Shown one piece after another: positions 8,827 to 43,061 of a stretch of 44,076 nucleotides of DNA. A program made the translations under genes and the position numbers. Below the pieces are notes generated by a model that saw only the letters and a list, made by a program, of their open reading frames with translations, had not been told where the DNA came from and ran no database searches. The first letter of the stretch is position 1. The number at the start of each line of letters is the position of its first letter. The DNA is from Martelella mediterranea (GTDB taxonomy: Bacteria; Pseudomonadota; Alphaproteobacteria; Rhizobiales; Rhizobiaceae), in assembly GCF_021021415.1 (NCBI RefSeq), contig NZ_JAINWJ010000060.1, forward strand, positions 1 to 44,076, in the 5' to 3' direction.

Positions 8827-8964
8827 GCGAAGCTCCTTGGAATCGTGCCGCAAGTCTGACGACGGCGCGCCTCCAAGGCAAGATATCGGCGCCGAATTCG
8901 CCCGGTTGCCCACCGGAATGCGGCGTCTGCGGTTCCGGGATAAGATTTTCTCTGTCCCCGCCCC

Positions 8965-8993
8965 TTTCCAGAAGCTTTTGAAACACTTATATC
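8965..8993 (+). promoter_or_regulatory. Possible ssrA promoter
   Basis: TTTCCA (8965-8970) and TATATC (8988-8993) lie 17 bases apart, a little upstream of the expected start of pre-tmRNA. The match is modest and a TTGACC further downstream (from about 9005) is an alternative -35. It lies in the divergent region between thyA and ssrA. Confidence 0.25.
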
Positions 8994-9014
8994 AGGTCTG
9001 CCGGCTTGACCGGC

Positions 9015-9320
9015 TATGGTGATAAACGGCAATGCAATAAGCTCATTGGACCCGGGGGCGGTACCCGGCGCCTCCACCATGATCAGGCGGAAAGGCCTGA
9101 TTTTGATGGGGGCGAAACAGGATCGACAAGAGTGTAAAGATTGACCTTTTACCCGGCATGATACCACCGTTATCGGGTCAAACGAGTAGTTGCAAATGAC
9201 AACAAAGCTCAGGGTTACGCTGTAGCTGCCTAATGGCGGTTCCAGAAACCCAAATTAAGCCCTTGCGGGTAGCACTGTAAGGCGGGGTCCGGAGGCACCT
9301 GGCAACAGAAGCCTCCACCT
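9015..9320 (+). ncRNA. ssrA: Transfer-messenger RNA, circularly permuted two-piece form
   Basis: This RNA rescues stalled ribosomes and tags the nascent peptide for proteolysis. The gene is permuted as in alphaproteobacteria. The acceptor piece comes first, with a T-arm-like CCGGG/CCCGG stem and the 3' end ACCA at 9076-9079. A removed spacer (9080-9107) carries an ATCAGG/CCTGAT hairpin. The coding piece begins GGGGGCG (9108-9114), which pairs with CGCCTCC (9069-9075) to form the acceptor stem. The tag frame at 9192-9233 encodes ANDNKAQGYAVAA followed by TAA. A GGAGGC/GCCTCC hairpin (9291-9316) closes the coding piece. The exact 5' and 3' limits are approximate. sspB, encoding the adaptor that recognises this tag, follows at once. 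Confidence 0.95.
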
Positions 9321-29256: not shown

Positions 29257-29592
29257 CTATTCCGCCGCCATCGGCAGCGCGGAGAGCGCAATGAAAAGCC
29301 GGCCGTCTTCGACCCGCACCGGATAGGTCTGCACCTCGCCCTCGTCTGCGCCGAGCGCCGTGCCGCTTTCCAGCGAAATCACCATATTGTGGAGCGGGCA
29401 GGTCACGGCCCTGCCATGCACAATGCCCTCGGACAGCGGACCAGCCTTGTGCGGGCAGCGGTCGTCGATGGCGAAGACCTCGTCCTCCGCGGTGCGGAAC
29501 ACCGCGATCCGCCCGAAGGCCGTATTCACGCAGCGCGCGCCGCGCCTAGGAATATCTTCGATACGGCCGATGGCGATGAAATCGTTGCTCAT
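29257..29592 (-). CDS. nirD: Assimilatory nitrite reductase small subunit (Rieske-fold)
   Basis: A 111-residue partner of NirB. Its Rieske-type fold keeps both metal-binding pairs: CPH in DDRCPHKAGPLSEG and C-x2-H in TCPLHNMV. Many NirD proteins lack these ligands, so this one may bind a [2Fe-2S] cluster and pass electrons in the NADH-dependent reduction of nitrite to ammonium. ATG at 29592 has AGGAG 6 bases upstream. It lies 10 bases after nirB. Confidence 0.95.
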   Translation of the reverse strand: MSNDFIAIGRIEDIPRRGARCVNTAFGRIAVFRTAEDEVFAIDDRCPHKAGPLSEGIVHGRAVTCPLHNMVISLESGTALGADEGEVQTYPVRVEDGRLFIALSALPMAAE

Positions 29593-29602
29593 GATAGGCT
29601 CC

Positions 29603-32050
29603 TCACTCCGCCGGCTCGGTCTGCCCGACCACGGCCATCGGCTTGAATTCGTGCTTGTCCTTGCCGGAGACGCGCTCCGACCACGGGTCGACCTGGGCGT
29701 ATTTCTGGCTTTCGACGAAGCGGTCGAAATAGGCCTTGCGCTTGTCCGCATCGTCCATGATCTGCGTGCGGACCTCGTCATAGCCGATGCGTTTTGCCCA
29801 TTTGTAGATGCGTTCCAGATAGCGGCCCTGCTCGCGGTACATCTGGGTGAGCGCCACGATATGCTCCAGCGCCTCGTCCTCGGTCTTGACCATGCCGAGC
29901 ACTTCCGTGCCCCGGATTTCGAGCCCGGCAGCTCCGGCGAAATGGATCTCGAAGCCACTATCGACGCAGATGACGCCGATATCCTTGCAGGTCGCCTCCG
30001 CGCAGTTGCGCGGACAGCCGGAAACAGCAAGCTTCAGCTTGGCTGGCGTCCACGAGCCCCACATGAACTTTTCGAGCCGGACGCCCAGACCGGTGGAATC
30101 CTGGGTGCCGAAGCGGCACCAGTCGCTGCCGACGCAGGTCTTCACCGTGCGCAGGCCCTTGGCATAGGCCTGTCCGGAGACGAAGCCCGCCTTGCCGAGG
30201 TCGGCCCAGACCGCCGGCAGGTCCTCCTTCTTCACGCCCAGCATGTCGATGCGCTGGCCGCCGGTGCATTTGACGGTCGGGATCTCGTATTTGTCGACCA
30301 CGTCGGCGATCGCGCGCAACTCCTTCGAGGACGTCACCCCGCCCCACATGCGCGGCACCACCGAATAGGTTCCATCCTTCTGGATATTGGCGTGGACGCG
30401 CTCGTTGATGAAGCGTGACTGATAGTCGTCGGCATATTCGCCGGGCCAGTCGCAGACGAGATAGTAATTGAGCGCCGGCCGGCACTTGGCGCAGCCGCAG
30501 GAGGTTTTCCATTCGAGCTCCTGCATCACGGCCGGAATGGTTTTCAGCCCCTTGGCGCGGATCAGGCGGCGCACATCGTCATGGCCGAGATCGGTGCAGC
30601 CGCAGACCGGCTGAACGGCGGCGGGGTTATAAGCATCCCCCAACGTCAGCGCCATCAGCTGCTCGACCAGCCCGGTGCAGGTGCCGCACGACGCCGAAGC
30701 CTTGGTATGGGCGCGGACATCGTCGAGCGAGGACAGGCCCTTGTCCTTGATTGCGCTGACGATCTTGCCCTTGCAGATACCGTTGCAGCCGCAGATTTCC
30801 GCGTCATCCGGAAGCGCCGCGACGGCCGCCGCCGGATCGGCCTCGGCACCGCCCTGATAGGCCTGGCCATAGATCAGAGTCTCGCGCATTTCGGAAACGT
30901 CGGTTCCGCGCTTCAGCATGTCGAAATACCAGGCGCCATCGGCGGTATCGCCGTAAAGCACCGCGCCGATGACGCGGTTATCCTGCAGGATCACGCGCTT
31001 GTAGACGCCGCGCGTGGCATCGCGCAGCACCACCTCCTCACGGTCCGGCCCCTCGGCGAAATCGCCGGCGGAAAACAGCTTGATGCCGGTAACCTTCAGC
31101 TTGGTGTTGACATGCGAGCCCTTGTATTCCGCCGCGCCACCGGCAAGCCGGTCGGCCAGCACGCCGGCGCTCTCATAGAGGGGCGCGACGAGACCGTAGC
31201 AGGTGCCGCGATGTTCGGCGCATTCACCGAGCGCGAAGATAGCGGGATCGGACGTCGCCATGCCGTCATCGACGACGATGCCGCGATTTGTTTCGAGCCC
31301 CGCATCCTTGGCAAGCCCCGCCGCCGGGCGGATGCCGACGGCCATCACCACCATGTCGGCGGAGATGATGCGGCCGTCCTCCAGCTCGACGCCTTCGACC
31401 TTGCCGTCTCCGAGGATTTGCTTGGTGTTGGCCTTGGTAATGATCTCGATACCGCGTTCGTCCAGCGCCTTTTCCAGAAGATAGGCCGCTGCCGGATCGA
31501 GCTGCCGCTCCATGATCGTGTCCATCAGGTGCAGCACGGTGACGCTCATGCCGCGCTGCTTCAGCCCGTAGGCCGCTTCAAGGCCCAGAAGCCCGCCGCC
31601 GATGACGACCGCATGGCCTTGCCCCGCGGCAATCTTCAGCATGCGATCAACGTCATCGAGATCGCGATAGGCGAGCACGCCGGGCAGATCGTGACCGGGC
31701 ACGGGGATGATGAAGGGCGAAGAGCCGGTGGCGATCACCAGCCGGTCATAGGATGCGGTGACACCGTTTTCGGCGGTCACGGTCCTTTCCTCGCGGTCGA
31801 TCTTCGACACTTTCGCGCCGCGATGCAGGGTTACGCCATGGGCTTCATACCAGTCATCGCCATGGATGATGATGTCTTCATAGGTCTTTTCACCGGAAAG
31901 CACGGGCGACAGCATGATGCGGTCGTAATTCACCCGTGGTTCGGCGTTGAAGATGGTGACGTCATAGAGGCCGGGGGCGCGCTCGAACAGGTCTTCGAGC
32001 ATGCGGCCGGGGGCCATGCCGTTTCCGATGATGACAAGTTTCTGGGCCAT
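29603..32050 (-). CDS. nirB: Assimilatory NAD(P)H-nitrite reductase large subunit
   Basis: An 815-residue cytoplasmic flavo-siroheme enzyme that reduces nitrite to ammonium. Order of domains: FAD/NAD(P)H oxidoreductase (VIIGNGMAPGRMLEDL, VVIGGGLLGLEAAYGLKQRG), two BFD-like [2Fe-2S] cysteine modules (CGCNGICKGKI...CGTC and VCGCTDLG...CGCAKC), then the siroheme/[4Fe-4S] domain with TCVGSDWC and GCPRNC. Length is normal. It starts 5 bases after the nrtCD stop and is followed by nirD and cysG, its partner subunit and the maker of its cofactor. Confidence 0.97.
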   Translation of the reverse strand: MAQKLVIIGNGMAPGRMLEDLFERAPGLYDVTIFNAEPRVNYDRIMLSPVLSGEKTYEDIIIHGDDWYEAHGVTLHRGAKVSKIDREERTVTAENGVTASYDRLVIATGSSPFIIPVPGHDLPGVLAYRDLDDVDRMLKIAAGQGHAVVIGGGLLGLEAAYGLKQRGMSVTVLHLMDTIMERQLDPAAAYLLEKALDERGIEIITKANTKQILGDGKVEGVELEDGRIISADMVVMAVGIRPAAGLAKDAGLETNRGIVVDDGMATSDPAIFALGECAEHRGTCYGLVAPLYESAGVLADRLAGGAAEYKGSHVNTKLKVTGIKLFSAGDFAEGPDREEVVLRDATRGVYKRVILQDNRVIGAVLYGDTADGAWYFDMLKRGTDVSEMRETLIYGQAYQGGAEADPAAAVAALPDDAEICGCNGICKGKIVSAIKDKGLSSLDDVRAHTKASASCGTCTGLVEQLMALTLGDAYNPAAVQPVCGCTDLGHDDVRRLIRAKGLKTIPAVMQELEWKTSCGCAKCRPALNYYLVCDWPGEYADDYQSRFINERVHANIQKDGTYSVVPRMWGGVTSSKELRAIADVVDKYEIPTVKCTGGQRIDMLGVKKEDLPAVWADLGKAGFVSGQAYAKGLRTVKTCVGSDWCRFGTQDSTGLGVRLEKFMWGSWTPAKLKLAVSGCPRNCAEATCKDIGVICVDSGFEIHFAGAAGLEIRGTEVLGMVKTEDEALEHIVALTQMYREQGRYLERIYKWAKRIGYDEVRTQIMDDADKRKAYFDRFVESQKYAQVDPWSERVSGKDKHEFKPMAVVGQTEPAE

Positions 32051-32055
32051 GTTTT

Positions 32056-33819
32056 CTACTCCGCTGCGACGCGTTTGTTGCAGGTCTGCCGGCTGATGCG
32101 CTGGTCGCGCTTCTGCCTGATGGCGGCGAGCTGTTCCTCGGCGGGCGAGGCGCCGCCTTCATAGGCTTCGAGAAACTCCAACAATTCCTCGCGGTAGGCG
32201 TAATAATCCGGGTGGTCGAGCAGCGCTTTTCTGGAGCGCGGGCGCGGCAGGTCGACCTCCATGATGTTGCCGATGCGGGCGTTCGGTCCGTTCGACATCA
32301 TCACCACCCGGTCGGCCAGCAGGATCGCTTCGTCAACATCGTGAGTGACGCAGATGGCGGTGACCTTGGTGCGCGACCAGACCTCCATCAGCACCTCCTG
32401 CAACTCCCAGCGAGTCAGGCTGTCGAGCATGCCGAAGGGCTCGTCGAGCAGCAGCAGCTTAGGCGACAGCGCGAAGGCCCGGGCAATGCCGACGCGTTGC
32501 TTCATGCCGTTCGACATGTCGGCCGCCGGCCGGTGCATGGCATCGCCAAGGCCGACGCGCTCAAGATAGTATTCGACGATATCGCGGCGCTCGGCAGGGC
32601 TTGCCTTCGGATAAACCCGGTCAACGCCGAGGGCGACATTCTCACGCGCCGTCAGCCATGGCATCAGCGAGGGGGCCTGAAACACCACGGCGCGATCCGG
32701 CCCGGCGCCGGAGATCTCGCGCCCATCGAGAATGATGCCCCCGGCATTGATCGGGTTCAGCCCCGCCGCCATGGAGAGCACTGTCGATTTTCCGCAGCCG
32801 GAATGGCCGATCACGGAAATGAACTCGCCCTTCTTCATCTTCAGGTCGAAACTGTCGACGACGGTCAGCGGGCCCTTGGGCGTCGGATAGATTTTGGTGA
32901 CGTTGGAGAATTCAACATAGCCGCTCTCGATGGCCGACTGCGCCTTTTCGCGATAGGCGGCGGGCAGCGGCTTCGAGGTCGATTTGAGCGAAATCGGAAC
33001 GACATTGGGCAACGTTTCCACCCGCGCCGTCTCCGGTTTCGCGCTGACGCCGACATCCATCAGATATTCGGTGATCGACGCGCGCAGGCGGATGAAATCG
33101 GGGTCGGAATTCATCGCCGCACGCTCACGCGGCCGGGCAATATTCACATCGAAGGACGGGCCGAAAGTGGCGTTGGGGCCGGGCGTCAGCGGCACGATCC
33201 GGTCCGCCAGAAGAATGGCCTCGTCGACATCATTGGTGACGAGAATGATGGTCTTCTTCTCTTTTTGCGAGATATCGGCAAGCTCGTCCTGGAGCTTTGC
33301 GCGGGTCAGCGCATCAAGGGCTGAAAGCGGCTCATCGAGAAGCAGCAGATCCGGCTGCATGGCAAGTGCGCGGGCGACCGAGACGCGCTGGCGCATGCCG
33401 CCTGACAGTTCCGACGGCTTGCGGTCGCGCGCATGGTTGAGGCCGACCATGGCCACATACCAGTCGACGAGCGCGGCCCGCTCCTTTGCCGGCTTGTCCT
33501 GGTGCACGGCGTCGACGGCGAGCCGCACATTGGCCTCCACCGAAAGCCAGGGCATCAGCGCATAGTTCTGGAACACGATGCCGCGCTTCGGCGACGGGCC
33601 TTCGACCGGTGCGCCGCGAAACAGGATTTCGCCGCTGTCCGGCTTATCGAGACCGGCGAGCATCGACATCAGCGTCGTCTTGCCCGCGCCGGAAAAGCCG
33701 AGGATCGCGATGAATTCGCCTTCCTGCACATCGAGCGAGATATCGGAAAGGACGGGGTTGCGCTTGACGCCTTCGCCAAAGCCCTTTTCCACGTTTCTGA
33801 GCTGAAGAATGGGTTTCAT
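32056..33819 (-). CDS. nrtCD: Nitrate ABC transporter ATPase, two nucleotide-binding domains in one chain
   Basis: A 587-residue protein with two complete ABC ATPase domains (about 5-260 and 302-555), where many systems have two genes. NBD1 has Walker A GFSGAGKT (41-48), signature LSGGM (138-142) and LLLLDEP, but its H-loop reads VTND with Asn196 in place of His. NBD2 has Walker A GHSGCGKS (338-345), a degraded signature MSNGM (435-439), LLLLDEP and an intact H-loop VTHD (His493). The second of two adjacent ATGs is chosen because AGGAGG is 5 bases before it. It powers NrtB permease, encoded just upstream. Confidence 0.95.
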
Positions 33820-33829
33820 CATGCCCTCC

Positions 33830-34906
33830 TTAGCGGTTCGCCGAATAGGTGAAGGCGGTCTGCAGCGCGAACATCACCCGGTCGAGGAAGAAGCCGATCA
33901 GGCCGATGGTGATGACGGCGACGATGATGCGGGCGAGCGAATCCGAGGACCCGTTCTGGAACTCGTCCCAGACGAACTTGCCGAGGCCGGGGTTCTGCGC
34001 CAGCATTTCCGCGGCGATCAGCACCATCCAGCCCACACCGAGCGACAACCGCATGCCGGTGAAGATCAGCGGCAGCGAGGACGGCAGGACCAGCTTGCGG
34101 ATCGTCGTCCAGGTGGAAAGCTGCAAGACCTTGCCGACATTGACGAGATCGCGATCGATCGAGGCGACCCCGAGCGCGGTGTTGATGATCGTCGGCCAGA
34201 TGGAACAGAGCGTCACCGTGATCGCCGAGATCACCATCGATTTGGGAAGAAGGTCGTTCTGGCTTTCGTAAAGCGCGGCCACCACCATGGTCACGATCGG
34301 CAGCCAGGCGAGCGGCGAGACCGGCTTGAACAGCTGGATCAGCGGATTGATCGCGCCCTCGAAGGTCTTCGACAGACCGCAGGCGATGCCGACGGGAACG
34401 GCAATCACCGTGCCGATGAAGAAACCGAGCGCGACCGTCAGCAGCGAGGTCCAGATCTGGTCGAAATAGGTCGGCTTGCCGGTATAGGGCCGCACCTTCA
34501 CCCGGTCGGCATAGCCTTCGGCGATCAACATCTGGTTGCGCTCATCCTGCCGGGCGTAAAATTCCTCGGCCTTCTGGCGCTCGGCAACATGGTCGTCCAT
34601 CAGCACCTCGGCCTGCTGGAACACCGCCGCCGGGCCGGGGATCGCGCCGAGCGAGGTATGGACCTTGGGCGCCAGGAATGCCCAGGCCGCCAGAAAAGCG
34701 AGGATGCCGATCAGAGGAACGAGCAGCATCTGTTTCAGGTCCGCCCATTGCTCCGACGGGGTATCGCCGGCGGCCAGCTTCAGAAGCGGCACGACGAAGC
34801 CGAGGCCGAAGGGGGCGAGCACCTTGCCCGACCGGTTGATCCGGGCGATGCGCCTTTCGCGGCGGGCGGCGATTTCGGGGTCCATCATGTCTGTGGCAAT
34901 GGTCAT
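33830..34906 (-). CDS. nrtB: Nitrate ABC transporter permease
   Basis: A 358-residue inner-membrane permease of the NrtB/SsuC (BPD_transp_1) family. A cytoplasmic N-terminal segment and one helix ([16 protein letters not shown]) precede a charged periplasmic stretch, then the transport domain with about six helices ([22 protein letters not shown] to the end). The EAA-like loop reads [32 protein letters not shown]. It forms the pore of the nitrate importer with NrtA outside and NrtCD inside. Confidence 0.94.
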
Positions 34907-34947: not shown

Positions 34948-36321
34948 TCAGCGTCCGGCAATCTTGTTGCCGTCAACAATCTCTTCCCCCTTCAGGCCGA
35001 TGGGGAAGCTCTCGAGATAGGCGTTCGGATGCCGGCCGTCATAGGTCACACCGTCGATGAATTCGTTGGTCGCGGGCTTGTAGCCATCGGTATCGAACGG
35101 GAAATCCGCGTCCGTGGCATGGCCCTCGTCGATCAGCTGGCGGGCGGCCTCCAGATAGATATCCGGCAGATAGACCGAGCGGGCGACCTCGTCATACCAG
35201 CCGTCTTCCCGTGGCTCGGCGATCTGGCCCCAGCGGCGCATCTGGGTCAGATACCAGATGGCGTCGGAATAATAGGGATAGGTGGCGTAGTGGCGGAAGA
35301 AGACGTTGAAGTCCTCCGCCGGGCGTTTGTCGCCCTTTTCATATTCGAACGTGCCGGTCATCGAATTGGCGATCACCTCGGCATCGGCCCCGACATATTC
35401 CGGGCGCGACAGGATTTCGACCGCCTCTTCGCGGTTGGCATTGTCGTTTTCATCCAGCCACATGGCGGCGCGGATCAGCGCCTTGGTCAGCCCCAGCGTC
35501 GTCTGCGGGTATTTTTCCGTAAATTCCTCGGTCAGGCCGAAGACCTTTTCCGGATTGTTCTTCCAGATATCGTAATCGGTGACCACCGGCACGCCGATAC
35601 CCTTGAACACGGCCGCCTGGTTCCACGGCTCGCCGACGCAATAGCCCTCGATCGTGCCCGCCTCCATCGTCGCCGGCATCTGCGGCGGCGGGGTGACGGA
35701 GAGCAGCGCATCGGCCTGGATCTGGCCGGAAATGTCGCCCGGCGAATAATAGCCGGGATTGATGCCGCCGGCGGCCAGCCAGTAGCGCAACTCGTAATTA
35801 TGGGTCGAGACCGGGAAGACCATGCCCATCTTGAACGGTTTGCCCTCGGCCTTGTAGGCCTCGACCACCGGCTTCAGCGCATCGGCCTTGATCGGGTGTT
35901 GCGGCTTGCCATCCGGACCTGCAGGAATATTTTCCTTCATCCGGCCCCAGACCGCGTTCGACACGGTGATCGCGTTGCCGTTGAGATCCATCGAGAACGG
36001 CGTGACGATATGCGCCTCGGTGCCATAGCCGATGGTGGCCGCCAGCGGCTGGCCGGCCAGCATATGCGCACCGTCGAGTTCCCCAGTGATCACCCGGTCG
36101 AGCAGCACCTTCCAGTTCGCCTGCGCTTCCAGCGTGACATAGAGCCCCTCATCCTCGAAGAAATGCATCTCCTTGGCGATCGCCAGCGGCGCCATGTCGG
36201 TCAACTTGATGAAGCCGATGGTCAGTTCGTCCTTTTCCGGAAACAGCATTTCGGCATGGGTAGCCGTCGCCGCAAAGGTCAGCGAACAGAGCATGGTGGC
36301 AGAGCAAAGGAAATGGCGCAT
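34948..36321 (-). CDS. nrtA: Nitrate ABC transporter substrate-binding protein
   Basis: A 457-residue exported binding protein of the NrtA/CmpA family. The signal peptide ends near ATATHAEM. The mature protein begins [29 protein letters not shown]. The family ligand-site region includes [15 protein letters not shown] and [16 protein letters not shown]. It captures nitrate or nitrite in the periplasm for NrtB-NrtCD. ATG at 36321 has AGGAG 6 bases upstream, and the intrinsic terminator at 36350-36411 sits just before that, so expression requires antitermination. Confidence 0.95.
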
Positions 36322-36349: not shown

Positions 36350-36411
36350 AAAAAACGAAAAAAGCCGCCTAACGGTCATCGGGCCAGTTGTGGCGCGAAT
36401 GCGTTGGCGGC
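36350..36411 (-). terminator. Intrinsic terminator in the nrtA leader (attenuator)
   Basis: On the minus strand GCCGCCAACG pairs with CGTT-A-GGCGGC: 10 base pairs with one bulged A. It is followed at once by TTTTTT, CG and TTTTTT. The end of the U-tract is 28 bases from the nrtA start codon. The 5' arm (36402-36411) overlaps the second hexaloop hairpin (36406-36417), so the two folds exclude each other. Confidence 0.88.
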
Positions 36412-36438
36412 GTTGCCTGGCACCCTCCATTGGGCGCC
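36406..36438 (-). promoter_or_regulatory. ANTAR-type dual hexaloop RNA motif in the nrtA leader (NasT target)
   Basis: First hairpin (36419-36438): GGCGCCC-AATGGA-GGGTGCC, seven base pairs with one G-U, hexaloop with A at position 1 and G at 4. Second hairpin (36406-36417), one base later: GGC-AACGCC-GCC, again A1 and G4, but only a 3-bp stem. A pair of such loops is the known binding signal of ANTAR antiterminators. The second hairpin uses bases of the terminator's 5' arm. The first is strong; the second is supported mainly by loop signature, position and the matching nasA leader. Confidence 0.8.
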
Positions 36439-36599: not shown

Positions 36600-37820
36600 T
36601 CAGATCGCCGCCTTCTGCTGTTCGATATAGGCGCCGACCTGATCGGGATCGAAGGTCTGCCCGTCGAAAAAGCCGTCGGGACCGAGGATGAGACCGCCGG
36701 CGCTCGCGCCCACCGGCGTCGGCGTCTTCAACGCGCCCTCCACCTTCAGGCTCGCGCCCGGTAGCGGCGTGTGCAGCGGCTGCAGCGCCTTGCGGTAGAT
36801 ATCCGGCCGGTAGCTCATCTTCGCGATCTCGGCGTTCTCGGCCGAGTGATCGCAAAGCCCCCAGCGCACGATCTGGCTGTAGAACCACAGCGCATGGCTC
36901 TGCCAGGGGAAGGTCGCGGCCTTGGCGGAGGTGAGGAAGAAATCCTCGACCGTGGTTTCCGCCTTTTCGCTGATCGAGAGCGTTCCGGAGAACAGCGGCT
37001 CGAGCATGGCACGGTCGACATCGAGATGGCCCGGCTCGGCGAGGATCGCGGCCAGTTCAGGGTGGTTTTCCGGCTCGGCCGCCCATTGCGAGGCGCGGTA
37101 GAGGCCACGCAGCAGCGCCGCCACGGTCTCCTCATTGGCCTCCACGAAATCGGCGGGCAGCGCCAGCACCTTTTCCGGGCTGGAGCGCCAGATCTTCGCC
37201 TTGACGGTGACGATCCTCGCCGCGCCGCGCCGCGCGGCAATCGTGTTCCACGGTTCGCCGGCGCAGTAACCGTCGATCCGCCCGGCTTCGACCGCATCCG
37301 GCATGAAGGGCGGCGGCAGCACCACGATTTCGATATCGCGGTCGGGATCGATGCCGTTGGCCGCGAGCCAGTAGCGCAGTTCGAGATTATGCCCGGAAAA
37401 CACGTAGACGACCCCGAAGCGCAGCGGCGGCAGGCCCTCAGCTCTTCTCGCCGCAATCACCCGTTTCAGCGCCGCGCCCGCTTTGGCCGGGTCAAGATCG
37501 CTCTCATCGCCCTTAGCTTCCATCGCAGCACCAAGCGCCGCCGAAACCGTCACCGCATTGCCCCCGAGCCCGAGCGCGATCGGCGCCACCAGTTTCGGCG
37601 CCAGCGGAAACAGGCCCAGATTGGCGGCAATCGGCATTGGCGCCAGCACATGGGCGGCCTGCAGGCTGCCGACCGCCAGCCGGTCACGGATCGCGCTCCA
37701 CGAGGTTTCCCGAGTGAGGCGCACCTTGAGCCCTTCCTTGATGAAAAAGCCCTTGGCCTCCGCCGCCAGAACGATGGCGCTGTCGAGAAGCGGCACAAAT
37801 CCGATTGAAAGGTCCTGCAT
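36600..37820 (-). CDS. nasS: NasS, cytoplasmic nitrate/nitrite sensor related to NrtA
   Basis: A 406-residue protein of the NrtA/CmpA binding-protein family without a signal peptide: it starts directly MQDLSIGFVPLLDSAIVLAAEAKGFF. HVLAPMPIAANLG and RIDGYCAGEPWNTIAA match the ligand-site regions of NrtA. NasS proteins hold NasT inactive in the absence of nitrate or nitrite and release it when ligand binds. It begins 2 bases after nasT, matching their 1:1 partnership. GGAG lies 8 bases before the ATG. Confidence 0.93.
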   Translation of the reverse strand: MQDLSIGFVPLLDSAIVLAAEAKGFFIKEGLKVRLTRETSWSAIRDRLAVGSLQAAHVLAPMPIAANLGLFPLAPKLVAPIALGLGGNAVTVSAALGAAMEAKGDESDLDPAKAGAALKRVIAARRAEGLPPLRFGVVYVFSGHNLELRYWLAANGIDPDRDIEIVVLPPPFMPDAVEAGRIDGYCAGEPWNTIAARRGAARIVTVKAKIWRSSPEKVLALPADFVEANEETVAALLRGLYRASQWAAEPENHPELAAILAEPGHLDVDRAMLEPLFSGTLSISEKAETTVEDFFLTSAKAATFPWQSHALWFYSQIVRWGLCDHSAENAEIAKMSYRPDIYRKALQPLHTPLPGASLKVEGALKTPTPVGASAGGLILGPDGFFDGQTFDPDQVGAYIEQQKAAI

Positions 37821-37822
37821 CT

Positions 37823-38413
37823 CTATCTCTCCAGCATCTCGAACGTCATGATCAGGCTCTGCGCCACATCGACAATCTTGCGGTTCTGATCCATCGCCGT
37901 GCGCCGCAGCAGCGCATAGGCCTTTTCCTCGTCCATGCCGCGTGATTTCATCAAAAGCGCCTTGGCGCGATCGACCACCTTGCGGTTTTCGAGCTGGCTT
38001 TTCGCCGCCTCCAGCTCCTGCGCCATGCGCGAAAACGCGTTGAACCGGGAAATCGCCATGTCGAGGATCGGCTTGACCCGCTCCTGCTTCAGCCCGTCGA
38101 CGACATAGGCCGAGACCCCGGCCTCGACGGCCGCATGGATGGTTTCGGCATCGGAGCGATCGACGAACATCGCGATCGGCTTTTTTACCGTGCGCGACAG
38201 CACGAACAGGCTCTCGAGCATGTCGCGGTTCGGATTTTCGATATCGATCACGATCACATCGGGCGACAGCCGCTCGATCGTGCGGGCAACGCCGACCAGT
38301 TCCTCCACCACCGTCACATTATGGTGGCCGGCCTTGAGCAGGCCGTCCCGGATAATGGCGGCGCGGATCGCGTTTTCATCGATGACAAGGATCGCGAGAT
38401 CACTGGTGTTCAT
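37823..38413 (-). CDS. nasT: NasT, ANTAR-domain transcription antiterminator
   Basis: A 196-residue regulator. The N-terminal receiver-like domain (LAILVIDENAIRAAIIRDGL, DVIVIDIENPNRD) is joined by a coiled-coil (~130-150) to a C-terminal ANTAR domain with KVVDRAKALLMKSRGMDEEKAYALLRR. Free NasT binds paired hexaloop hairpins in leader RNA and blocks intrinsic terminators; NasS sequesters it without nitrate. Two such leaders are in this cluster, one upstream of the operon that includes nasT itself. It starts 21 bases after nasA. Confidence 0.95.
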   Translation of the reverse strand: MNTSDLAILVIDENAIRAAIIRDGLLKAGHHNVTVVEELVGVARTIERLSPDVIVIDIENPNRDMLESLFVLSRTVKKPIAMFVDRSDAETIHAAVEAGVSAYVVDGLKQERVKPILDMAISRFNAFSRMAQELEAAKSQLENRKVVDRAKALLMKSRGMDEEKAYALLRRTAMDQNRKIVDVAQSLIMTFEMLER

Positions 38414-38434: not shown

Positions 38435-41400
38435 TCAATAGACATCGCGCATATAACGTTTTTCCCTGATGAGCGTCTTAACGTAGCCTTCGGCGGCCAC
38501 TTGCGAAAGCCCGCCATGGGTCTCGGCAACCGCCCTAAGCGCGGCATCCACATCCTTCGCCATGCGGCTCGCATCGCCGCAGACATAGAAATGCGCGCCT
38601 TCCTGCAGCCACTTCCAGATTTCGCGCCCGTTTTCCGCCATGCGGTGCTGGACATAGATCTTCTCCGCCTGATCGCGCGAAAAGGCTGTGTCGAAGCGGG
38701 TCAGCAAACCGCCCTTCTGCCAGGCCTCGATTTCGTCGCGATAATAATAGCCGCTGTCGCGCGATTGCTCGCCGAAGAACAGCCAGTTCGGCCCGCCCGC
38801 GCCCGCCGCCTCCCGGTCCTGCAAAAAGGCACGGAACGGCGCAATGCCGGTGCCCGGACCGACCATGATCGCCGGGGTGTCCGGATCGGCGGGCGGGCGG
38901 AAATGCGCCTGTTTCTTCACCGAAACGCGCACCGGCTCGGCCGCCGCCCTGTCCGCCAGAAACACCGAGGCGACGCCCTTGCGGCTCTTTCCGTAACGGG
39001 CATGGCGCAGCACCGAAACCGTCAGATGAATTTCATCCGGGCTCGCCTTCGGGCTGGAGGCGATCGAATAGAGCCGCGGCTGCAGCTTCTTCAGATTGTC
39101 GCAGAAGTCCTGTCCGGCAACGGGTTTCGGCGCGATGGCGACAATATCGGCGATCTGCCGGCCCCAAAGCCAGTCATTGAGGGCTTTCCGGTCGGCGGCG
39201 GCAATCAGGGTATTCAGCGTTTCATGCCCGCTGACATCCGCCCACCATTTGAGGAAATCCGGATGCGACTGACCGATCTCGAAATGATCGCGCAACGCCT
39301 CGCCGATGCCGATATCGTGGCCGTTGATGCCGGAAATCGGCGTCTCCGCCGGCAGCTGCAGAGAGCTCAGGATTTCATCGACAAGCTCGGGGCAGTTGCG
39401 CGGCATGATGGAAAGCGCATCGCCCGCCTCGTAATCCGCCGCGCCATCGACCCGGAAGCCGAACTGGCGCACCTCCTTGGCGCTGCCGGAACCGCTCAGC
39501 AGCCGGTTGACGCTGAGCCTGGCCGCAACGGTTTGCGGCGGTTTGCGCCCATTGGAACGGACGGCGGTTTCAGCCGAGGCCGCCGCGCCATTCGAACGCC
39601 CGGAAAGAGCGGCCATCGCCGCTGAAACCGCCTCCGCCTCCTCGCCCGCATCCAGCGTGCGACAGGCCGCCAGACGCGCGCCGCCGAGCGCTTCAAGCCG
39701 GGCATCCAGTTTCCGGCCGAAGCCGCAGAACTGATCATAGGCACTGTCGCCCATTGCCACCACGGCATAGCGCAGTCCCTCAAGGCGGGGCGCATCCTCG
39801 CGCAAGAGCGCCGCCCAGAAATCGGTCGCATGATCGGGCGGATCGCCATCGCCGAAGGTGCTGACGATGAAAAGCCCCGGGTCCTTTATCGCAAGGTCAT
39901 GCGGCGAGACCGCGTCGAGCGGGCGCAACGCCGCCCGGTACCCCGCCGCGCCGAGCGCGTCGCAAAGATCGGCGGCCGCCATTTCCGCAGTCCCCGTCTG
40001 CGAGGCAAAGAACACGGAGACACCGGTCTTTGATGGGTCCGTGTCCGGCTGCGCGTCCTTGCCTTCCGCTAACACCGGCACAGCCTCGACCTTGCCCCGC
40101 GCAACCACCGGCGCATCGGGCTTGGCCGCCGCCACGCGGGCGAGCGCAACCGCCGTCACCTTGAATTCCGGCTGGAGCGATATCGGATCGACGGCATCGC
40201 CGGTCACCGCGTTGACCGCCAATTGGTCGCCGAACACATCGTTCCAGTGAAACGGCGCAAACAACGCGCCCGGCAAAACCCGGTCGGTCACGACCGCGGG
40301 CAGCACCGCCCTGCCGTGACGCGAGGAAACAGAAACCCGGTCACCCTCGCCAATCGCAAGCGCCGCAGCATCGGCCGGATTGATCTCGACGAACGGCGCG
40401 GCATTGAGCTTGTTCAGCCGGGCGACCTTGCCGGTCTTGGTCATGGTGTGCCACTGGTGCTGAAGCCTGCCGGTGTTGAGAATGAACGGATAGTCGCCAT
40501 CCGGCATTTCACGCGCACCAGAGTGCGGCCGTGGCCAGAATTTCGCCCGGCCGCTTTCGGTGGCGAATTTCAATCCCGTATCAGGCGTGCGGTAGCGGAT
40601 GGGGTTGCGCGTGGCTTGCCCGGTCTCGGATGCCGGCCACTGGATGCTGCCTTCACGCAGACGTTCATGCGTGACGCCGGAAATATCGTAGCCGGTGACA
40701 GGATTGGAGAACCGCCGGATTTCCTCAAACACCTCTGCCGCGCTCCCATAGCCGAAGGCTTCCTCGTAGCCCATGGCGCAGGCGACTTTTGCGATGATCT
40801 GCCAGTCCGGCAGGGCCTCGCCCGGCGCCTTTGCGGCCGCCGCCGTCAGCGCCATGTTGCGCTCGGAATTGACCATGACGCCATCGGCCTCGAACGACAC
40901 CGCCGCCGGCAGGAGGATATCGGCATAGGGCGTGGTTTCGGTTTCGGCATAGGCATCCTGCACCGAGACGAATTCGGCGCGCTCAAGCGCCGCCGTCACC
41001 GTCTTGCGGTTGGCGACGCTCGCCACCGGATTGGTGCAGATGATCCAGGCGGCCTTGATCGCGCCCGCGGCCATCGCCTCGAACATGGCGATGGTGCCGG
41101 TGCCCTCCTCGGTGCGGATGGTGCCGGGCGCAAGGCCCCAGCGGGTCTCGCAGAAGCGACGGTCATCTTCGACGAGCGCCGAACGCTGCCCCGGAAGGCC
41201 GGGCCCCATATAGCCCATCTCGCGTCCGCCCATGGCATTCGGCTGGCCGGTCAGAGAGAACGGCCCGCTGCCCGGGCGACAGATCTTGCCCGTCGCAAGA
41301 TGCAGATTGCAGATTGCATTGGTGTTGAACGTGCCCTGCACCGACTGATTGAGCCCCATGGTCCAGAGCGTCATGAATTCGCCGGCGGCGCGCAGCATAT

Positions 41401-42238
41401 CGGCAGCGGCCCTGATGTCCTCGACCTCAAGCCCGGTGATCGCCGCGACCTGCTCCGGCGGGTAATCGGCGAGAAAGGCCGGCATATCGGTCCAGCCCTC
41501 GGTGTGGGCCTCGATAAAGGCCTGATCGATGCCGCCCGCCTCGACGATCAGATGCAGGAGGCCGTTCAGCAGCGCGAGGTCGGTTCCGGATTTCGGCGCG
41601 AGATGAAGGTCGGCTTTCTCGGCAGTCGTAGTGCGGCGCGGATCGACGACCACCAGCTTCGCGCCTTGCTTCACCCGGTCCATCATCCGCAGGAACAGGA
41701 TCGGATGGCAATCGGCCATGTTCGAGCCGATCACGAGGAACAGATCGGCCTTTTCGATATCGTCATAGGATCCCGGCGGCGCGTCTGCGCCGAGCGACAG
41801 CTTGTACCCGGAACCGGCGCTGGCCATGCACAGCCTCGAATTGGACTCGATATGGCGCGTGCGTAAAAACCCCTTGGCGAGCTTGTTGGCAAGATATTGC
41901 GCCTCCATCGACATCTGGCCCGAAACATAAAGCGCAACCGCGTCCGGCCCGTGCGTGTCGGCAATTGCGCGCAGCCGCTTCGCCGTTTCAGCAATCGCCA
42001 CATCGACGGAGGCAGCCTCTGGCGCAACGCCCTCCCCCCGCACAAGCGCATTCGCAAGACGACCGGCAGCGACAATCGCCTCATGCGCGGTCTTGCCCTT
42101 GGTGCAGAGCCGCCCGCGATTGGCCGGATGCTCTCTATCGCCGGAAAGTCGGATAATCCGCCCGTCCTCGACATCGAGCACCACGCCGCAGCCGACGCCG
42201 CAATAGGGACAGACGCTCTTGACGGTCTCTACACCCAT
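38435..42238 (-). CDS. nasA: Assimilatory nitrate reductase fused to flavodoxin and CysJ-like NADPH reductase domains
   Basis: A single 1267-residue polypeptide. Residues ~1-700 are a molybdopterin nitrate reductase: [4Fe-4S] cysteines C10, C13, C17 and C45 (VCPYCGVGC...LCTKGK), Mo-ligand cysteine in [15 protein letters not shown], and the C-terminal MGD domain. From ~735 comes a flavodoxin domain ([41 protein letters not shown]). From ~905 comes a CysJ-type FAD/NADPH reductase ([46 protein letters not shown]). NADPH can thus feed nitrate reduction with no separate electron-transfer subunit. ATG has GGAGG 6 bases upstream. It opens the nasA-nasT-nasS unit behind an attenuator. Confidence 0.95.
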
Positions 42239-42345
42239 CGCCGTCCTCCGCCTTGAGAAGGGCTGACGATTGACGGAAACGGGAGATGACGCGCAGAATG
42301 GATCACATGCCGGGGTGGCATCGGCTTTCCTCGCTGTCTAAAATG

Positions 42346-42411
42346 AAAACAAAAAAGCCGCGGCATCATTCGAAGCGCTCCCTTGAAGGAAACGGTTCTC
42401 AGATCCGCAGC
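42346..42411 (-). terminator. Intrinsic terminator in the nasA leader (attenuator)
   Basis: On the minus strand GCTGCGGATC pairs with GAT-G-CCGCGGC: 10 base pairs including one wobble and one bulged G. It is followed by TTTTTT, G and TTTT (42356 down to 42346). It lies about 108 bases before the nasA start. Its 5' arm (42405-42411 and beyond) overlaps the second hexaloop hairpin (42403-42419). Confidence 0.85.
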
Positions 42412-42441
42412 TTTGCGATGGAATGCCCGCCATTGGACATT
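42403..42441 (-). promoter_or_regulatory. ANTAR-type dual hexaloop RNA motif in the nasA leader (NasT target)
   Basis: First hairpin (42422-42441): AATGTCC-AATGGC-GGGCATT, seven pairs with one G-U, loop A1/G4. Second hairpin (42403-42419), two bases later: ATCGC-AAAGCT-GCGGAT, five pairs with one bulged G, loop A1/G4. The first loop shares AATGG with the nrtA leader, and the second again overlaps the terminator arm. Both elements match the known ANTAR RNA signal. The same organisation in two leaders makes chance unlikely. Confidence 0.87.
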
Positions 42442-42451
42442 GATATGTTCA

Positions 42452-42480
42452 ACGATAGTCCGACACGCGGCGACTTTCAA
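42452..42480 (-). promoter_or_regulatory. Predicted promoter of the nasA-nasT-nasS unit
   Basis: Minus-strand TTGAAA (42475-42480) and TATCGT (42452-42457) are 17 bases apart. Transcription would start around 42442-42447, a few bases before the first hexaloop hairpin. A TTGA-TATGT-TCAA dyad (42440-42452) overlaps the start region and could be an operator. Confidence 0.5.
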
Positions 42481-42533
42481 GCCCGACCGCTGATTTGCAG
42501 TTGCGGGGCATCACAAGGGAGGAAGACAGCACG

Positions 42534-43061
42534 ATGCCGGTAAAGATCAAACGGGTCTATGACGAACCCGACAAGGCGGACGGCCTGCGCGTTCTCGTCG
42601 ACCGGCTCTGGCCGCGCGGCCTTGCGAAGGACAAGGCCCGCGTCGATCTCTGGGCCAAGGACGTCGCGCCTTCAGGCGAATTGCGCAAATGGTTCGCGCA
42701 CAGAGAAGACCGGTGGGAGGATTTTCAACGGCGCTATCGCGCGGAGCTTGCGGAAAACGCCGCGCTTGATGAACTGTGCGCAAGGAACGAGAAACACACC
42801 GTGACCTTGCTCTACGCCGCCCGCGACGAATGCATCAACCACGCGCGGGTCCTCGCGGCCGTTATCGCGGAAAGGAGCGGCCGCCACGCCGAGACGGATC
42901 AGCCGGACGAAGGCGCAATGGAGGTGTCGTCACCGCCCTGTTTTCTGCACGAACTGGACCCGGCCTGGCTGGAAACGGAACGTCGCGACGACAGCGGCGA
43001 AACGGCCGATCGCGAATCCAACGACCAGCCCTCGCACAAGAAAACCGGCCGTTCGCAATAG
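42534..43061 (+). CDS. DUF488 family protein with a C-terminal SPPCFLHELDP tail
   Basis: A 175-residue protein. Residues 1-115 are a standard DUF488 domain: KIKRVYDEPDKADGLRVLVDRLWPRG, ELRKWFAHREDRWEDFQRRY, VTLLYAARDECINHARVLAAVI. DUF488 proteins are of unknown function, with some suggested links to nitrogen and redox metabolism. After a charged linker comes SSPPCFLHELDPAW (132-145) and a polar tail. The tail is not part of DUF488. It is divergent from nasA with about 295 bases between starts. ATG at 42534 has AGGAAG 8 bases upstream. Confidence 0.82.
   Translation: MPVKIKRVYDEPDKADGLRVLVDRLWPRGLAKDKARVDLWAKDVAPSGELRKWFAHREDRWEDFQRRYRAELAENAALDELCARNEKHTVTLLYAARDECINHARVLAAVIAERSGRHAETDQPDEGAMEVSSPPCFLHELDPAWLETERRDDSGETADRESNDQPSHKKTGRSQ

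Follow-up and report, generated by a model that had tools for sequence, protein, structure and literature searches.

Two putative dual-hexaloop ANTAR-target attenuators flank nasT-nasS in the nitrate-assimilation operon of Martelella mediterranea

In Paracoccus denitrificans, NasT is reported to bind the leader RNA of nasA, and nitrate-dependent release of NasT has been described (PMC3795266). The system is presented as a REC-ANTAR NasT, a cytosolic NrtA-like NasS and a hairpin leader before nasA (PMC3795266, PMC5424462), with nasTS forming a separate unit upstream of the leader under its own NtrC-dependent promoter (PMC5424462). As the ANTAR model is described, the second of two leader hairpins (P2) has to form early and be held (PMC3369931, PMC3369936, PMC8934654).

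Here we analysed a 44,076-nucleotide stretch of Martelella mediterranea DNA (contig NZ_JAINWJ010000060.1 of assembly GCF_021021415.1), referred to as the window. Its nitrate-assimilation genes follow the order switch 1-nasA-nasT-nasS-switch 2-nrtA-nrtB-nrtCD-nirB-nirD. This shares the components described for P. denitrificans; unlike the arrangement reported there, the nasA switch precedes nasTS, and nrtA has a second switch in front of it. The genes are the following:

38435-42238, minus strand: nasA, 1267 aa, molybdopterin nitrate reductase fused to a CysJ-like flavodoxin/FAD/NAD module
37823-38413, minus strand: nasT, 196 aa, receiver-like domain plus ANTAR, beginning 21 bases after nasA
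36600-37820, minus strand: nasS, 406 aa, NrtA-like sensor, no obvious signal peptide by eye
34948-36321, minus strand: nrtA, nitrate-binding protein (PF13379), named from gene context
33830-34906, minus strand: nrtB, nitrate ABC permease (TIGR01183, below its cut-off)
32056-33822, minus strand: nrtCD, fused nitrate ABC ATPases (TIGR01184, above its cut-off)
29603-32050, minus strand: nirB, nitrite reductase large subunit (TIGR02374, above its cut-off)
29257-29592, minus strand: probable nirD, Rieske-like small subunit, read from the translation

The probable nirD is the C-terminal part of an open reading frame listed as 29257-30030. NasA relatives that align over nearly the whole length occur in Pseudomonas and Actinobacteria. 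Elsewhere in the window, an alphaproteobacterial (permuted) tmRNA gene lies at 8961-9319 on the plus strand.

A preliminary description of this DNA, made by eye, had placed a NasT-responsive attenuator before nasA and a nasT gene in the same operon; nasT is indeed found there, downstream of nasA. PF00072 and PF03861 (NasT) and PF13379 (NasS) all score above their Pfam cut-offs, so that both the architecture and the adjacency of a NasS-NasT pair are present. NasT retains the phospho-acceptor aspartate, but at position 106 the receiver lysine of EutV is replaced by aspartate, which would fit regulation by NasS binding rather than by a kinase. Seven EutV positions have been named as RNA-contacting (PMC8934654). 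Mapped onto NasT through an alignment, with a numbering offset of two inferred from matching letters, five are identical or conservative (K145, R149, R170, M174 and K179) and two differ (D175 and N177), as they do in NasR.

The nasA-leader element occupies 42346-42441 of the minus strand, directly behind a conserved promoter, and its parts are:

42480-42452, minus strand: sigma-70-type promoter of nasA, TTGAAA-17-TATCGT
42422-42441, minus strand: P1 hairpin AAUGUCC-AAUGGC-GGGCAUU, hexaloop AAUGGC, 7 pairs including one U.G
42406-42417, minus strand: P2 (antiterminator) hairpin CGC-AAAGCU-GCG, hexaloop AAAGCU, three G-C pairs
42346-42414, minus strand: intrinsic terminator, 10-bp stem and U tract to 42346

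These are the hairpins, the terminator and the -35/-10 pair that the preliminary description had picked out, with small refinements. P2 could gain an outer U.G pair at 42418/42405, and the tract described as T6-G-T4 is U3-G-U4 after the 3' arm, reaching six only if the last three arm bases are counted. The terminator arms are AAAGCUGCGG at 42405-42414 and CCGCGGCUUU at 42354-42363, and the 5' arm, AAAGCUGCGG, consists of the P2 loop and the P2 3' arm, which is the overlap already reported. The two hairpins stand close to each other, each with a stem of 3 bp or more and a six-base loop that has A1 and G4, as had been noted. The RNA start is predicted from the promoter at about 42445, and a further 107 nt of leader separate the U tract from the nasA start. 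Upstream, the divergent neighbour, a DUF488 protein gene at 42534-43061, is on the plus strand; the terminator is therefore not the end of a neighbouring minus-strand gene, and it sits just behind the promoter, as an attenuator would.

A second dual-hexaloop attenuator, absent from the preliminary description, lies in the nasS-nrtA gap of the same operon at 36350-36438 on the minus strand:

36419-36438, minus strand: P1, GGCGCCC-AAUGGA-GGGUGCC
36406-36417, minus strand: P2, GGC-AACGCC-GCC, one base after P1
36350-36411, minus strand: terminator, GCCGCC(AACG) with (CGUUA)GGCGGC, then U6-CG-U6

A1 and G4 are present in both of its loops too. Conserved DNA precedes nrtA, but no single promoter could be fixed there. 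With the sigma-54 consensus pattern used, the coding strand shows no such site within 400 bases upstream of nasA or nrtA. An NtrC-like site with two mismatches upstream of nrtA was discarded as meaningless, since there are 64 such matches on both strands of the window.

We then asked how exceptional these structures are. The nasA leader folds with z = -3.33, a value equalled by 1 of 200 shuffles, while the plus strand of the region shows nothing unusual (z -1.12), placing the element on the minus strand. A descriptor written post hoc, with the sites known (two ANNGNN hairpins, a first stem of at least 5 pairs and a terminator starting around the second loop), matches twice in the 44-kb window, at the nasA and nrtA leaders, and once in total in 60 dinucleotide shuffles. 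Without the terminator requirement, it matches twice in the window against a shuffle mean of 0.75, so most of the weight comes from the terminator overlap.

The folds compete as the ANTAR model demands. For the nasA leader, the terminator fold (-38.5 kcal/mol) is 12.8 kcal/mol better than the best P1+P2 fold (-25.7 kcal/mol), and for the nrtA leader the values are -42.0 and -32.2 kcal/mol. P2 of the nasA leader is weak by itself (-2.9 kcal/mol). When the RNA is cut before the terminator 3' arm, the P2 core pairs form with a probability of 0.94-0.99 in nasA (outer U.G 0.41) and 0.99 in nrtA, falling to zero in both full-length leaders; P2 would thus form first and be lost unless held. Folding the leader with and without the terminator, a check suggested by the preliminary description, supports its proposal. 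In free nasA RNA, A1 of loop 2 also pairs with U6, a pair that a bound protein would need to open. P1 stays folded in the terminated fold (pair probability 0.75-1.0 in nasA and 1.0 in nrtA).

We consider the nasA-leader element very probably a dual-hexaloop ANTAR-target attenuator that most likely acts through NasT freed from NasS by nitrate. Transcription would begin a few bases upstream of P1. In the absence of nitrate, NasS would hold NasT, P1 would form, the P2 sequence would be taken into the terminator and transcription would stop about 100 nt from its start. With nitrate (or nitrite), NasT would be freed, bind the emerging hexaloops and hold P2; with P2 held, the terminator could not form and nasA-nasT-nasS would be transcribed. 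The second copy before nrtA would repeat the decision for nrtA-nrtB-nrtCD-nirB-nirD. We infer NasT release by nitrate, RNA binding and read-through from the related systems.

Because nasT-nasS lies behind switch 1, its expression should rise with read-through, a positive feedback suggested by gene order alone. This allows a tentative picture of a nested antitermination circuit, possible although we would not bet on it, in which switch 1 precedes the nasT-nasS that opens it, the same protein opens switch 2, and the P1 hexaloops of terminated leaders can soak up NasT. If so, NasT and NasS would increase jointly once switch 1 is read through, and the circuit could respond above a threshold, remember past nitrate and deliver its output, transport and nitrite reduction, late and multiplied. 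A related addition to our preferred explanation, compatible with it, is that the terminated leader (about 100 nt, with P1 folded) is also a stable sRNA that binds free NasT and damps induction. The persistence of P1 in terminated leaders fits this, as do reports that EutV binds each isolated hexaloop and that EutX of Enterococcus sequesters EutV (PMC8934654); we nevertheless regard it as unlikely.

Conservation within the genus was examined in 13 genomes, the window's own included. Whole nasA, in one or two aligned pieces, is present in 11 of these, in 12 copies, the other two (G001 and G003) having only distant nasA homologues. P1, P2 and the terminator are kept in all 12 nasA leaders, 11 of which have A1 and G4 in both loops, L014 being the exception, and the second element is kept in all 12 nrtA leaders of the same 11 genomes; taken together, 23 of 24 genus leaders carry A1 and G4 in both loops. 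Every nasA copy is followed by nasT and then nasS, and the double-switch layout occurs in all 11 nasA-bearing genomes. The promoter hexamers are identical in 11 of the 12 nasA leaders, the twelfth having TTGCAA-17-TATTCT; the spacer is 17 bases throughout, with P1 8-10 nt downstream. One genome (G009; L008, L017, L037 and L046) carries the nasA cluster twice, each time with leaders. Of the 11 other genus copies, 7 have a NasT with 99.5-100% identity, and the catalytic part of NasA there is 89-93% identical.

To follow the element beyond the genus, we built a covariance model, R1, from 13 of the 24 genus leaders, including both nasA and nrtA kinds. The window elements, both training sequences, score 70.5 (nasA leader) and 59.4 bits (nrtA leader). 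After these, the best score is 11.7 bits within the window and, genome-wide, 17.3 bits (E 0.03); since all other R1 matches have E of 0.03 or worse, only two targets are supported in this genome. Run with stricter filters on 297 genomes of the family, R1 hit 279 with an E value of 1 or less, mostly by chance. Strong elements, defined as 83 matches at E up to 1.6e-6 plus one at 3.4e-6, come from 78 genomes, of which 72 have a single match and 6 have two.

Loci were taken for 80 of these 84 matches, 30 directly with the search and 50 from their coordinates, omitting three genus nrtA leaders already included and a match at a contig start (G139). Together with the 24 genus leaders and one further locus, L135, they make 105 segments, three of them present twice; 77 elements are new in the family set beyond the genus leaders. 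L135, from a Rhizobiales bacterium (43.8 bits), was the one clear match when R1 was run on nasA homologue loci of other organisms, the 80 top-ranking ones among 594, a selection that may omit the window's genome and its near kin; the other four matches there scored 14.6 bits or less. The order nasA-nasT-nasS is also seen in Acetobacter cerevisiae (L204), where R1 found no match in the 503 bases covered before nasA, which are apparently coding.

A strict pattern parsed 97 of the 105 segments. The 8 that it missed differ in a stem or a second-loop base and keep A1 and G4 of loop 1 by eye; L105 is unclear in loop 2. A1 and G4 occur in both loops of 94 of the 97 parsed leaders. Because A1, A2 and G4 of loop 1, like A2 and G4 of loop 2, are built into the pattern, counts at these positions are not independent evidence. 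In the 3 remaining leaders (L014, L055 and L118), loop 2 reads GAAGCU, with G at position 1, and the terminator still pairs by G.U. The A1 rule is therefore not absolute, and these leaders offer a natural test of it. In the terminator loop, between the arms, several relatives (L053-L060) have a hairpin-like sequence in common that resembles GATCCCGGATGTACGGACGC.

Downstream of the 80 loci, nrtA-, nirB- or nasA-like sequence was found in 71. Eight show only nasS upstream, with 1.5 kb downstream covered, and one (L128) shows neither. In L128, a weaker element (28.9 bits) precedes nirD-like and formate/nitrite-transporter-like open reading frames, followed by a kinase/phosphatase-like one (by eye). 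Most other family genomes have their sole strong element behind nasTS. One genome of another genus (G108) has the same order as the window, split by contig ends inside nasT, provided that its two contigs join.

The preliminary description had also looked to a covariance search with the ANTAR RNA family model. No existing Rfam family matches, but R1, trained on the genus leaders, detects the element in 78 of the 297 genomes. Rfam 15 gave no match at gathering level at the nasA-leader element. A permissive scan of 42300-42500 had as its best hit c4-a1b1, upstream of the element, at 19.5 bits (gathering 46.7; E 0.006), and at the nrtA leader such a scan found nothing of note. No Rfam match at E up to 1 was found in 20 loci, nor in a 71-base rescan. 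An identity with the narK RNA (RF03032) was dropped, as it scored 11.1 bits (E 8) in the scan of 42300-42500 against a gathering value of 43.2 and was found in none of the 20 loci.

Compensatory change was assessed in 66 distinct parsed leaders, with slid partners as the control. P1 is 96.1% paired with 34 double-change cells, compared with 38-61% and 2-15 cells for slid partners. The P2 core is 100% paired with 13 such cells, against none in slid controls, though one slide pairs 94%. For the terminator, pairing reaches 98.3% and the cells number 52 (slid, 24-68% and 0-10), its paired percentage being partly built in because partners were chosen by best pairing. All three stems therefore exceed their slid controls, and the compensatory changes that the preliminary description proposed looking for in orthologous leaders are present. 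The 80 R1 matches are 97.9% paired with 56 double-change cells, and none of 500 shuffles reaches either value, a count in which the structure is favoured since the alignment was fitted to the model. The number of pairs with double change in these matches does not go beyond shuffles (5 versus 3.6; 48 of 500 letter shuffles as high), and neither do the genus leaders taken alone (4 versus 3.1, 140 of 500 as high; for pair types, 401 of 500).

In the P2 3' arm, the third residue has two alternative partners, one in the P2 5' arm and one in the terminator 3' arm. Across the 97 parsed leaders, the triples at these positions are G-C-G in 69, C-G-C in 15, A-U-A in 11 and imperfect in 2 (A-U-U and C-G-U). 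Such a residue, with three states that are each complemented on both sides, is expected from two mutually exclusive folds, although the leaders are related and the independent events are therefore few. A competing terminator whose 5' arm overlaps P2 is present in 97 of 97 parsed leaders. A terminator of at least 8 pairs is found in 62 of the 66 distinct leaders and in 21 of 1,320 with shuffled downstream tails; a loose terminator rule is passed by 152 of the 1,320 shuffled tails.

Of the same 297 genomes, 151 encode a NasT homologue at E up to 1e-15. They include 77 of the 78 genomes that carry a strong element and 74 of the 219 that do not (Fisher p 3e-27, a value that overstates independence because the genomes are related). 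In 75 of the 78, a same-strand nasT is found within 6 kb and ends 1330-2491 nt ahead of the closest element; the remaining three are G108 (split), G135 (on another contig) and G251 (no NasT found, short contig). The 74 genomes with NasT and no strong R1 match mean that R1 is too narrow or that NasT has other targets.

This linkage bears on which protein acts. The genome encodes three ANTAR proteins above the Pfam cut-off, and the other two (at L002 and L003) each adjoin a binding-protein-like gene by eye, so that the attenuator could be real and served by one of them, as an AmiR-like protein beside an AmiC-like sensor. We judge this very improbable. Their ANTAR domains score 44.1 and 36.9 bits, compared with 74.5 for NasT, and their 3-kb loci have no R1 match at E up to 1, whereas nasT accompanies the element as above and nrtA-, nirB- or nasA-like sequence follows it in 71 of 80 loci. 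Taken together, the folding, the covariation and the nasT linkage support ANTAR-target attenuation of nasA, most likely via NasT, as the preliminary description had predicted; they were computed here, as were the sequence, the conserved promoter, the exclusive folds and the presence in NasT of most RNA-contact residues.

The DNA between the terminator and nasA (42229-42345, minus strand) is a conserved block, and it contains one further feature:

42229-42321, minus strand: candidate leader ORF of 30 codons, with SD-like GAGGAAAG and ATG, ending 10 nt inside nasA

Its frame (29-30 codons) and the SD-like GAGGAAAG are kept in 11 of 12 genus leaders, with one in-frame 3-nt deletion, and a ribosome acting on this or another leader peptide might set nasA expression, the hexaloops being incidental. 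Such control is highly improbable. The frame lies behind the terminator and so cannot govern it by classical attenuation, it runs into nasA in L014, and elsewhere in the family the dual-hexaloop element precedes other genes. Substitutions in 10 leaders of equal length show no codon-position signal (296/283/276), and coding is not supported by the sequence; we record the frame as an observation only. Least credible is a constitutive, unregulated partial terminator that sets a low basal level, which would suit the strongly favoured terminator fold of both leaders and leaves the hexaloops, the P1 covariation, the three-way covariation of P2 and the nasT linkage unexplained.

Our preferred reading, ANTAR-target attenuation through NasT, turns a guess made by eye into a well-supported regulatory prediction, for an element that is strong in 78 of 297 family genomes and matched by no Rfam 15 family in the window or the 20 loci. 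Among plasmids, 178 records match the nasTS region at 60-80% identity, 81 from Sinorhizobium, 29 from Rhizobium, 15 from Paracoccus and 9 from Ensifer, and in Sinorhizobium meliloti the regulation of the assimilatory genes has been called not yet known (PMC6616083). A double switch with its regulator in between also provides a natural test of antitermination wired for positive feedback. In the literature on NasT and ANTAR proteins, NasT autoregulation, AmiR and rhizobial nasTS, we found no such double switch among titles and abstract openings, a body of text to which subscription journals mostly do not belong.

Comparison with P. denitrificans is not wholly favourable. Mutation of its hairpin HI is reported to lower expression severely and to stop growth on nitrate, and mutation of the second hairpin, HII, to have had little effect with nitrate (PMC5424462); the latter counts against our explanation. 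So does a report from Bradyrhizobium diazoefficiens, in which hairpins predicted ahead of narK were associated with raised expression when nasT was mutated (PMC6759348). The weakness of P2 alone, the two differing contact positions of NasT and the three leaders with G1 in loop 2 likewise weigh against it. The Klebsiella nasF leader and NasR resemble the present case as a nitrate-responsive ANTAR antitermination system with a dual-hexaloop leader, with the difference that NasR is described as sensing nitrate itself through a NIT domain, without NasS (PMC3369936). The EutV targets of Enterococcus faecalis likewise have two A1/G4 hexaloop hairpins with P2 overlapping a terminator, and the eut cluster is described as holding several attenuators (PMC3369931, PMC8934654). 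Between minimal 3-bp stems, the hairpins are 8 nt apart in nasA and 5 nt in nrtA, within the range of 5-12 nt reported for the E. faecalis eut genes. EutV is switched by the kinase EutW, whereas NasT, with aspartate in place of the receiver lysine, is expected to be switched by NasS. In Pseudomonas aeruginosa amiECBRS (AmiC-AmiR), an ANTAR regulator and its ligand-binding partner are encoded inside their own attenuated operon, as here, and AmiR has a pseudo-receiver; that system is described as responding to amide, not nitrate, and with one leader (PMC3369936). The nasA switch is of a known kind; what sets this operon apart from the systems compared is the double switch around its own regulator.
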